A stretch of DNA of 50,038 nt. Origin: an uncultured Candidatus Saccharibacteria bacterium (GTDB taxonomy: Bacteria > Patescibacteriota > Saccharimonadia > Saccharimonadales > Saccharimonadaceae). Below are positions 15,721 to 46,374 of this stretch, one piece after another. Within the stretch, counting starts at the first letter, position 1, and each line of letters opens with the position of its first letter. The notes beneath the pieces are model-generated. The model saw nothing but the letters and a program-made list of their open reading frames with translations, was not told the origin of the DNA and did not search any database. The stretch spans positions 1 to 50,038 of the forward strand of contig CAMPEU010000028.1 of NCBI GenBank assembly GCA_946804195.1, written 5' to 3'. A program made the translations under genes and the position numbers.

Positions 15721-15786
15721 TCCGATAACGCCTATGGTTAAGGGCAATTCCATGATACAATAATATCGAATGTACCAGTGGGCATC

Positions 15787-42785: not shown

Positions 42786-43262
42786 CTATCTTTTGGGCGT
42801 ACGCATTGTCAAGACATCATACAGTGCGTACGCAATACCTGCGGTAATAATAAACGTTGTGTTGTCCGAAAGGAAGATATAAATCCTAAAAGCGGTGTCG
42901 TCGATAGTGGGATCCAAATTCAACGCAATCCCCAAAGGCCCAAGTAGAAATGAGGTTGCCAAAAGTGCAAATGCTCCAGCCCCAATCAATCTGGGTATTC
43001 GCCTCGTATACGTAGGCCCACTAAACAATAGAAGTACGGCCGGTACCAATACGAGTCCTGCCGCTACCAGGCTAGAAAGCGGTGGTAATAGCAATTCAAA
43101 TCCTGCGCCGCGCACAAATGGCGTGACCTGCGCTGTCCACATTTCACTTATGAGATATCCCGCACAAAGTGCCAATCCCAAAACTCCAAAGCGTCGTCGC
43201 GTGACGTATGTCATTGCAAAAAGTAAAACGATAATTGTGATGATAACTGCAACTAGGCTCAT
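42786..43262 (-). CDS. Multi-pass membrane protein of unknown function
   Basis: 158 residues with about five membrane helices. No recognised motif. The start codon directly follows the stop of the DUF192 gene (TAAATG), so it is the last gene of the rim operon. Confidence 0.75.
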   Translation of the reverse strand: MSLVAVIITIIVLLFAMTYVTRRRFGVLGLALCAGYLISEMWTAQVTPFVRGAGFELLLPPLSSLVAAGLVLVPAVLLLFSGPTYTRRIPRLIGAGAFALLATSFLLGPLGIALNLDPTIDDTAFRIYIFLSDNTTFIITAGIAYALYDVLTMRTPKR

Positions 43263-43715
43263 TTATTCTCCTGACGGTAGCGTGATCATATCACCCATCT
43301 TTAATCCCGTCCTTTCTATTGTACCGCTAATGGTTTCGATTACATAGCGAGCTGGTGCAGTTGGTCGAAAGATTGTGTCGGGGTAGCTAGATGGCTGGGC
43401 ATCTTTCACGATATGAATAACCTTACCATCCTTGTCCGTCCAGATAATATCGATGGCGTAATTCATATCCTTCATCCAAATCCCCCATGTACCTTCATGC
43501 TCAAAATCAAATAGCATTGCTCGATTTTGCGCCAGACTCTTGGTGCCAGATAAACCACGAATTTTATCCTCTTCCGTCTGCAGTATTTCAACTTCAAAGG
43601 TAGTATTCACCAGCTGTAATTTTGGCTGCTGACTCGACATTTGCCACCACAAAAAGCCCGCAACGATAGCAATGACAGCGACAACAATCACTATCCCTGC
43701 CCACCTGCGCTTCAT
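43263..43715 (-). CDS. DUF192 family protein, membrane-anchored
   Basis: 150 residues from the ATG at 43715, one base after the rimK stop (the frame open to 43757 overlaps rimK). One membrane helix (6-25), then a DUF192 domain: EVEILQTEEDKIRGLSG, RAMLFDFEHEGTWGIWMKDMNYAIDIIWTD and PARYVIETISGTIERTGLKMGD. DUF192 proteins are small extracytoplasmic beta proteins of unknown function. Its fixed place after rimK is of interest. Confidence 0.9.
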   Translation of the reverse strand: MKRRWAGIVIVVAVIAIVAGFLWWQMSSQQPKLQLVNTTFEVEILQTEEDKIRGLSGTKSLAQNRAMLFDFEHEGTWGIWMKDMNYAIDIIWTDKDGKVIHIVKDAQPSSYPDTIFRPTAPARYVIETISGTIERTGLKMGDMITLPSGE

Positions 43716-43716
43716 C

Positions 43717-44622
43717 TTATGCTCCGACTTTGTCTTTTTTGTTCCGTCGCTTTGCATTCAACTCGATATATTCAATAATCTTGCTCGCAACATCACGACC
43801 AGTGATAAGTTCTGGGGTTTTCAGACTTGCCGAAGAGTTAACCTCTAGGACCAATGGGCCACGTGAACTACGCATCATATCGACGCCACAAATTGATAAC
43901 CCCATTGCCTTTGCTGCCTTAATTGCTGTCTTAACTTCTTCTTCTGTTAATTTCACAGCCGAACCCGCACCACCCTGATGTGTATTGCTACGGAAATCCC
44001 CGTCTAGGCTTTGACGCTTTACGCTTGCAACGACACGACCACCAACAATGAGTGCACGAATATCCTCACCCGCTGATTCTTTGACAAATTCCTGAACCAA
44101 AAAGTTTACACCTTCAACATAAAATGCCTGCATAACGGCCTTGGCGGCTTTTGGTGTTTCAGCTAAAACAACACCGTTGCCATGCGTTCCGCGTGCAACC
44201 TTTATGATTAATGGTGCACCACCGGCAAGCTCAATAACGTCTTCGAAGTTCGCCGTTTCGCGTGCAAAGACAGTTTTTGGTATTGCGACACCAGCTTTTG
44301 CGAGTACTTGATACGCTCGTAATTTATCGCGAGAGCGATTAATCGCCAGCGATGAAGCCGTCGTATATATGTCTTGACTCTCAAATTGCCGAACCATTGC
44401 CGTTCCATATTTTGTATAGCTCTGAGCAATCCTTGGAACAATTGCATCAAAATCATTGAGTGACTTGCCCCTATATCGAACAACGGGGAGATTTTTTTCT
44501 ATTGATACATAGCACTGCGCGTAATTGATGATCGAAACATCATGCCCACGAGCAAGGGCAACTTCTTTGAGTCTTTTGGTCGTATAATTCGCCGCACCTT
44601 TTGATAAAATTGCTATTCTCAT
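43717..44622 (-). CDS. rimK: RimK-family ATP-grasp ligase
   Basis: 301 residues. A RimK N-terminal domain (RIAILSKGAANYTTKRLKEVA; DFDAIVPRIAQSYTKYGTAMVRQFE) precedes ATP-grasp motifs PLIIKVARGTHGNGVVLAE, FVKESAGEDIRALIVGG and GPLVLEVNSSASLK (Mg site Glu and Asn). RimK of other bacteria adds glutamates to the end of ribosomal protein S6; the substrate here is not known. It overlaps rimB by ATGA. The TPELITG tail departs from the usual NSSPGLEGIE. Confidence 0.93.
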   Translation of the reverse strand: MRIAILSKGAANYTTKRLKEVALARGHDVSIINYAQCYVSIEKNLPVVRYRGKSLNDFDAIVPRIAQSYTKYGTAMVRQFESQDIYTTASSLAINRSRDKLRAYQVLAKAGVAIPKTVFARETANFEDVIELAGGAPLIIKVARGTHGNGVVLAETPKAAKAVMQAFYVEGVNFLVQEFVKESAGEDIRALIVGGRVVASVKRQSLDGDFRSNTHQGGAGSAVKLTEEEVKTAIKAAKAMGLSICGVDMMRSSRGPLVLEVNSSASLKTPELITGRDVASKIIEYIELNAKRRNKKDKVGA

Positions 44623-45080
44623 TTTTTATATCTTTCTTTAAATTCTTCTGCTTCTTCTGGGTATTTATATAGTTTCGCTTCACCTGGATCACCGCTGTCC
44701 ACTAAAAAGTTTCCACGTAAGGTGTTTCGTCCAATCAATATGGGGTACGTTTGTGTTGCACGATCAGACAGCGTAAACTTTGCATTCAACCGCTTTCCAT
44801 GCATTCGTATAGATAAACGTACAACGTGACGCTGCTGAACATGTCCCGTCGAACTGGTTACCTCACGAATTTCAATTGCCTTTCTACGAATAACCTTACC
44901 CGTATACCATTCAGAACTAGGACCAAATAATTTAAACGTTGCAATGCCGTCATTAATGGTTATATCCGACGCCCAAAGCGAGGATGTACGTGCGCCCGTA
45001 TCAATTCGAACCGGAATTGCTTTAAGGTTTTTGTACCCGATAAAATCAACGAGCGATGATACGCCAATAATGCTATGCAT
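44619..45080 (-). CDS. RimB-like retropepsin-type protease (RimK-associated)
   Basis: 153 residues. Pepsin-retropepsin fold signature VRIDTGARTSSLWASDI, with Asp in DTGA, then HVVRLSIRMHGKRLNAKFTLSDRATQTYPILIGRNTLRGNFLVDSG. This is the family often named 'ATP-dependent zinc protease' found beside rimK; in Pseudomonas RimB trims the glutamate tails made by RimK. No ribosome site is evident at its start. It overlaps the end of the small ORF at 45073-45153 by 8 nt, suggesting coupled translation. Confidence 0.9.
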   Translation of the reverse strand: MHSIIGVSSLVDFIGYKNLKAIPVRIDTGARTSSLWASDITINDGIATFKLFGPSSEWYTGKVIRRKAIEIREVTSSTGHVQQRHVVRLSIRMHGKRLNAKFTLSDRATQTYPILIGRNTLRGNFLVDSGDPGEAKLYKYPEEAEEFKERYKK

Positions 45081-45153
45081 ACTGCTCGCCTAACCCACGC
45101 GATATTGCTGGGTTTCTTACTAAGTATTTGTTGATTTGGACTGATTTACTCAT
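45073..45153 (-). CDS. 26-residue leader ORF heading the rimB-rimK operon
   Basis: ATG at 45153, stop TAG at 45073-45075; the peptide begins MSKSVQINKYLVRNPAISRG and ends LGEQYA. TATAAT (minus strand, 45162-45167) lies 8 nt before the ATG, matching the leaderless pattern of the window. So this ORF, not rimB, is at the mRNA 5' end. Its stop falls within codons 2-3 of rimB (T-ATG-CATAG), the geometry of coupled translation. In Pseudomonas a small protein, RimA, heads the rimABK operon. The peptide could be a RimA analogue, a substrate, or only a translation coupler. Confidence 0.55.
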   Translation of the reverse strand: MSKSVQINKYLVRNPAISRGLGEQYA

Positions 45154-45161
45154 ACCTGTGT

Positions 45162-45167
45162 ATTATA
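45162..45167 (-). promoter_or_regulatory. -10 element of the rim operon
   Basis: TATAAT on the minus strand, 8 nt before the small ORF and about 81 nt before rimB. AACCCA/TGGGTT (45092-45097 and 45109-45114) could form a weak hairpin inside the small ORF. Confidence 0.6.
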
Positions 45168-45241
45168 CGATACGTACCTTTTTATGTAACCCTTATATCT
45201 TTATATTATACACTTAAACTGTACAAAAAGCAATGTCGTAT

Positions 45242-45273: not shown

Positions 45274-46374
45274 TTACTTAAAAATTCCGTGTTTTTTTGT
45301 TGAACCGAACTTTTCCAACATATCCTTTTGTTGTTTTGAGAGTTTTGTCGGCGTATCGACAATAATAGTCACAATATGCGGACCCCGAGAATCACGTTGC
45401 AAGTGTGGAACACCGTGGTTTGATAGTTTGAAATCAGTACCACTTTGTGTACCCGCAGGAACTTTCATTGTTGCAACACCATCTACTGTTTCAATATCAA
45501 TTTCAGTACCGAGTGCTGCACCAACCATATCTACATGTTCTTCGGAAAGGATAATATCACCCTCACGTGTAAATTTCTTGTGTGCTTTGACACGGATATG
45601 AACATACAGATCACCACGCCCGCCGCCGCCGATTGCTTCACCACGATCACGCAGGCGTATTGTCGCCCCATCATCAATACCTGCAGGAATCTTTACCTTA
45701 ACATTCTGCTTTCGACGCTGAGTGCCCTTGCCGTGACAAACGCTACAAACTTTTTCCGGTACCTTGCCCCGTCCCTTGCATTGATCACATACTGCGGCCT
45801 GCTGAATCTGACCAAAGATGGTATTTACAATCTTGACCTGTTGACCACTACCCTGACACGTCGGACACGTCTTCATGTCATGTCCCGGCTCGACAGTCGT
45901 ACCCTTACAGTGCTCACATTCGTCATCCATATCCAGAGAAATTTTTTCTTCTTTGCCAAACACCGCCTCTTCAAATGTCAGTGTCGTTTGTGTTTCGATA
46001 TCACGTCCCCTGCGTGGTCCACGTGATTGTTGCTGACCAGCGCCAAAGAATTGACTAAATATATCGCCGAAGCCTCCATCACCAAAATCAAAATGAGCAT
46101 TCTGCCCCGTGAAGCCACCGTTACCAAAAGGACTACCTCCTCCACCGCTACTAGCGCCACCTACGCCAGCGTGACCAAATTGATCATATCGTTGGCGTTT
46201 TTGCTGATCTTTTAGTACTTCGTATGCCTCGTTAATTTCCTTGAATTTGGTTTCATCACCACCTTCTTTGTCGGGATGATGTTGAACAGCGGCCTTGCGA
46301 AAGGCTTTTTTTAATTCATCGGCAGACGCACTCTTACCGACACCTAAAACTTCATAATAATCTCGTTTTGTCAT
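45274..46374 (-). CDS. dnaJ: Chaperone DnaJ
   Basis: 366 residues: J domain with HPD (33-35), Gly/Phe-rich linker (GGGGSPFGNGGFTGQ), four zinc-binding repeats (CEHCKGTT, CPTCQGSG, CDQCKGRG, CSVCHGKG) and the C-terminal substrate domain. The first repeat is degenerate (TT in place of GxG) but keeps both Cys. It stimulates DnaK ATPase and delivers unfolded proteins. Its promoter carries a perfect CIRCE operator, so HrcA repression and heat induction are expected. The TATACT (46383-46388) lies 8 nt before the ATG. Confidence 0.97.
   Translation of the reverse strand: MTKRDYYEVLGVGKSASADELKKAFRKAAVQHHPDKEGGDETKFKEINEAYEVLKDQQKRQRYDQFGHAGVGGASSGGGGSPFGNGGFTGQNAHFDFGDGGFGDIFSQFFGAGQQQSRGPRRGRDIETQTTLTFEEAVFGKEEKISLDMDDECEHCKGTTVEPGHDMKTCPTCQGSGQQVKIVNTIFGQIQQAAVCDQCKGRGKVPEKVCSVCHGKGTQRRKQNVKVKIPAGIDDGATIRLRDRGEAIGGGGRGDLYVHIRVKAHKKFTREGDIILSEEHVDMVGAALGTEIDIETVDGVATMKVPAGTQSGTDFKLSNHGVPHLQRDSRGPHIVTIIVDTPTKLSKQQKDMLEKFGSTKKHGIFK

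Follow-up and report, generated by a model that had tools for sequence, protein, structure and literature searches.

The 26-codon ORF at the head of the rimB-rimK-DUF192 operon of an uncultured Candidatus Saccharibacteria bacterium is best explained as an upstream frame that is either incidental or feeds ribosomes to rimB, and most likely not as an overlooked small protein. Within the window, i.e. the whole stretch of 50,038 nucleotides from contig CAMPEU010000028.1 that was analysed, the ORF was found exactly as a first-pass annotation had described it: 26 residues, located 8 nt after a TATAAT and ending inside codons 2-3 of rimB. On the minus strand 8 nt (ACACAGGT) separate the TATAAT from the ORF, which reads ATG AGT AAA TCA ... 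GAG CAG TAT GCA TAG. Its ATG lies 73 nt from the rimB start. The ORF is distinct from rimB, being upstream and out of frame with an offset of one base. A rimB start farther upstream is impossible because the rimB frame has an in-frame stop at -12 and the conserved core (IIGVSS) begins at residue 4. The features of the locus are listed in Table 1.

Table 1. Genes and sequence elements around the ORF upstream of rimB (positions in the window).
Feature	Position	Strand	Remarks
orf158	42786-43262		158 aa, without Pfam match; after the DUF192 gene
DUF192 gene	43263-43757	-	coordinates for the earliest possible start; a second ATG inside, at offset 42 (~43715), has an SD
rimK	43717-44622	-	PF08443/PF18030; 4-nt overlap with the rimB stop
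rimB	44619-45080	-	retropepsin-like; PF05618, E 3.7e-16
Overlap of ORF stop and rimB start, ATGCATAG	45073-45080	-	8 nt, -8 spacing; ends in rimB codons 2-3
26-codon upstream ORF, MSKSVQINKYLVRNPAISRGLGEQYA	45073-45153	-	ATG start, TAG stop
AGGCGAG	45085-45091	-	SD-like sequence of rimB
Predicted hairpin	45092-45114	-	within the ORF, directly 5' of the SD-like sequence of rimB; RNA structure prediction
P2 -10, TATAAT (perfect)	45162-45167	-	8 nt 5' of the ORF ATG
P2 -35-like, GTTACA	45185-45190	-	spacer 17; 10/12 consensus matches
P1, second perfect TATAAT	45205-45210	-	upstream of P2; TTGCTT at 45228-45233, spacer 17
dnaJ	45274-46374	-	native upstream neighbour

P2 was the top promoter-like site of the region. 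Its spacing to the ORF (TATAAT-N8-ATG) fits a putative leaderless upstream ORF (uORF) whose 5' end is predicted from the promoter. A transcript from P1 would be a leadered mRNA that carries both the ORF and rimB. The rimB start sits within a weak predicted hairpin, and the predicted RNA structure of the whole leader did not differ significantly from that of shuffled sequences (z = -0.95 to -1.67). A search of the region against Rfam gave no match.

The peptide was searched against 394 genomes of the family, none of the same species. Only the ORF itself was recovered; the best non-self match had an E value of 0.137. Pfam and NCBIfam gave no match to the peptide. An equivalent ORF, i.e. one that overlaps rimB and closely follows a good -10, was present at none of 50 related rimB loci, and the members of the window's genus in which the order dnaJ-rimB-rimK-DUF192 is kept (G006 and G008) have no such ORF. 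The locus L021 has an unrelated out-of-frame ORF of 60 codons; it begins behind a poor TATCGT, 179 nt upstream. At the DNA level the leader yielded only short matches in the 394 genomes, mostly over P1 (query positions 40-85). Alignments with the syntenic dnaJ-rimB leaders of G006, G008, G022 and G193 and with others gave no score above that of shuffled sequences and thus did not permit a dN/dS or RNAcode-type test.

The codon-usage score of the ORF was -0.09, which corresponds to the 56th percentile of intergenic open stretches, the 7th percentile of gene segments and the 20th percentile of gene N-termini. Codon usage of the ORF is intergenic-like and carries no coding signal. By these comparisons the peptide does not qualify as a conserved small protein. 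The first-pass annotation had considered the ORF an overlooked gene; the absence of homologues from the 394 genomes, the result at the 50 loci and the intergenic-like codons speak against this. Among the available relatives rimB and rimK are conserved and the ORF is not, which is the outcome that the annotation itself had named as refuting its proposal.

The claim that leaderless starts are common in this genome, and that the position of the ORF is typical of them, was borne out. Initiation by 70S ribosomes on leaderless mRNAs is established. In a genome sample of 765 kb, read as stretches, an exact TATAAT-N5-8-ATG was found at 57 long-ORF starts; because genes were defined as long ORFs, in place of calls by a trained gene finder, the start counts are approximate. 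For the 19 other permutations of the TATAAT hexamer the mean was 4.7 gene starts and the maximum 17. Gene-start spacers peaked at 6 to 9 nt, with 22, 17, 17 and 14 starts, respectively, and the 8-nt spacing of the ORF falls into this range. The 57 gene starts make a strong case, at the level of sequence, for widespread leaderless mRNAs and leaderless initiation in this Saccharibacterium.

The account that we favor, tentatively, is that the ORF is a lineage-specific uORF at the 5' terminus of the mRNA, which is translated and feeds ribosomes to rimB while its peptide is itself without function. According to the spacer statistics, transcription from P2 would start 0 to 2 nt before the ORF ATG. 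70S ribosomes would begin at this ATG, as expected for the numerous leaderless mRNAs of the genome, would read 26 codons and would stop at the TAG within the 8-nt overlap with rimB. Some of them may re-initiate at rimB or keep the rimB start region unfolded. The stop/start overlap is compatible with translational coupling, and -8 is one of three overlap spacings that are enriched among coupled genes (PMC12548453). Taken alone the geometry is unremarkable and ordinary for a chance upstream ATG in this genome: out of 238 out-of-frame ATGs located 20 to 110 nt upstream of a gene, 51 led to termination within -20 to +6 of the gene start, 22 of the 238 exactly at -1, -4 or -8.

Next in rank, and a real possibility, is that the ORF arose by chance and has no role, the ATG behind the -10 being incidental; rimB would then be read via its AGGCGAG from P1 or P2 transcripts. 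The lack of conservation and the frequency of comparable overlaps agree with this. Furthermore, non-gene ATGs showed no excess at spacers of 6 to 9 nt (36 vs. 34 expected from neighbouring spacers), i.e. such ATGs at leaderless spacing are background. ORFs that look leaderless and are coupled to the start of a gene were not significantly enriched (4 vs. a mean of 1.74 for the permuted hexamers, Poisson P ~0.10), which counts against the uORF account in that the ORF may be an untranslated product of chance. The first-pass annotation had assumed that rimB translation depends on the ORF. Against such a dependence, rimB has a moderate SD of its own, the AGGCGAG at a suitable distance, and would be served by the leadered mRNA from P1. 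The anti-SD duplex of the 18 nt preceding rimB has a predicted energy of -4.9 kcal/mol, which is equalled or bettered by 43% of genes and 17% of random internal sites; a 16S rRNA gene for checking the anti-SD was not found in the assembly. On the other hand, with leaderless initiation being widespread, ribosomes are likely to be captured by an ATG 8 nt past a good promoter; at this spacer we counted 17 ATGs that start genes and 12 that do not. The ORF illustrates how plausible upstream ORFs arise by chance in genomes with leaderless starts.

The origin of the arrangement was approached by comparing rimB and its neighbors. The rimB product scored 46 bits against the NCBIfam equivalog RimB, far under the cut-off of 200; by sequence it is therefore a distant member of the family, encoded next to rimK. 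The five nearest rimB genes (77-82%) belong to G078 (Saccharibacteria HKST-UBA56) and to four genomes of genus g18. In G078 the homologous ATG of rimB comes immediately after a TATAAT promoter (TATAATAAAAAGTATG), with the same AGTATG start, and only MIMD precedes IIGVSS in the protein. Because the rimB ATG of G078 directly follows its own TATAAT, the extra segment is private to the window. In the g18 genomes rimB is preceded by another gene. Viral contigs contained no rimB, and genome contigs contained that of five relatives, at least two of which are identical to G078 and G026.

The RimB of the window has 78-83% identity to those of G026, G151 and G078, all of other genera, and only 37-51% within its own genus. 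In contrast, DnaJ and orf158 follow the genus with 87% and 88% identity to G008, respectively. The RimB proteins of G008 and G006 share 74% identity, so that the divergence is not simply due to fast evolution within the genus. Thus RimB of the window is apparently a xenologue between native flanks. The simplest reading is that rimB was swapped in place for the gene of a relative, with the ORF at the upstream junction, and we infer that the leader is unalignable for this reason. Such a replacement would be a route by which a promoter and a nearby ATG came to end 73 nt before a start that was not their own, and the uORF arrangement probably arose in this way, i.e. native rimB gave way to that of a distant relative, leaving the promoter and an ATG at leaderless distance. 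While the identity pattern is a direct observation, its causal connection to the ORF is probable. One may guess that the ORF is a stump of the old rimB gene; no native rimB had an N-terminus to which the ORF could be aligned. The locus is an example of how a gene that is exchanged horizontally can become linked to a promoter.

RimK of the window goes with one part of its own genus, with 86-91% identity to G009, G001 and G007 compared to 65-66% to G008 and G006. Within the fixed neighborhood dnaJ...rimB-rimK-DUF192-orf158, rimB and rimK seem to be exchanged separately (43717-45080, L132-L141).

A stronger version of the favored account is that the uORF is a device that loads ribosomes onto a rimB which was acquired horizontally and lacks a strong SD; the mini-ORF would have been newly captured, and rimB would be reached by re-initiation. 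We consider this rather unlikely. If true, it would mean that in a lineage reliant on leaderless initiation a foreign gene distant from a promoter can be expressed through a captured mini-ORF.

It is improbable that the ORF is the split-off N-terminal extension of RimB, with the leaderless ATG as the former start and an indel near 45080 that arose by mutation or assembly error. Many relatives do start rimB leaderless just after a TATAAT, the ORF and rimB frames differ by a single base, and N-terminal tails of RimB are variable with up to ~22 residues before the conserved IIG/VIG motif (G350). Yet the fused tail would be longer (~27 residues) without a match to the tail of any relative, no slippery site was seen, and the nearest rimB, that of G078, starts at the homologous ATG with its short MIMD.

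Least of all do we expect a functional small protein private to the species, although the ORF heads the operon with 26 open codons, and such a peptide is conceivable insofar as conservation was sampled above the species level only and rimB was apparently replaced: neither the 394 family genomes nor the genus provided a homologue, codon usage gave no signal and no family matched. For the same reasons the roles proposed for the peptide in the first-pass annotation, a regulator of RimK or a modification substrate, are unsupported, and as a small protein the ORF is of no importance.

The suggested analogy to RimA, taken to be a small protein at the head of rimABK in Pseudomonas, did not hold, RimA not being a small leader peptide. 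RimA of P. fluorescens is an EAL-domain cyclic-di-GMP phosphodiesterase (PMC4741518; PMC10092738), therefore a 26-residue peptide that matches nothing in Pfam or NCBIfam is not its counterpart, and the idea of a regulator akin to RimA is unfounded. In Pseudomonas rimABK, as in the window, rimB adjoins rimK, whereas nothing similar to the EAL-domain RimA is present in the window.

Closer parallels to the favored uORF come from E. coli, where 5'-terminal uAUGs in front of SD-led genes undergo translation and in some cases influence the gene that follows (Beck, Fleming and Janssen 2016, PMC4965119). These 5'-uORFs likewise combine an AUG at the mRNA 5' end, a short ORF and a normally led gene downstream; some alter downstream expression, and their peptides have an unknown or no function. 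The ORF of the window differs in that its 5' end is deduced from the promoter only, its host is a Saccharibacterium and it overlaps the next start. The novel leaderless sORFs from the pervasive translation of Mycobacterium tuberculosis (PMC9094748) are similarly short, unconserved and without signs of selection on codon usage, but were seen by ribosome profiling, while the ORF of the window is known from its sequence. With termination-reinitiation coupling as reviewed (PMC12548453) it shares the stop/start overlap at -8, and the operon continues in tight packing, with a 4-nt overlap between rimB and rimK. Unlike there, the upstream partner in the window is an unconserved 26-codon ORF and not a conserved cistron.

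Other mini-ORFs of 6 to 9 codons were noticed right after a -10, overlapping a gene start by ATGA, TAGTG or similar. They are located in L121 (minus strand, 16485 in strand coordinates), in L103 at 2063 (plus strand) and in the window at 15769 (plus strand), and are too few to beat chance. Downstream of rimBK, orf158 is present in many Saccharibacteria of the Saccharimonadaceae and appears as a conserved, uncharacterized companion of the rim operon. Finally, fusions of rimB to an ATP-grasp (RimK-like) domain occur in several Saccharibacteria (L008, L010, L027, L030, L035, L045 and L013). The order is mostly ATP-grasp followed by PF05618 and is reversed in L013; a separate full rimK lies downstream of the fused rimB in L008, L010, L030, L035 and L045.
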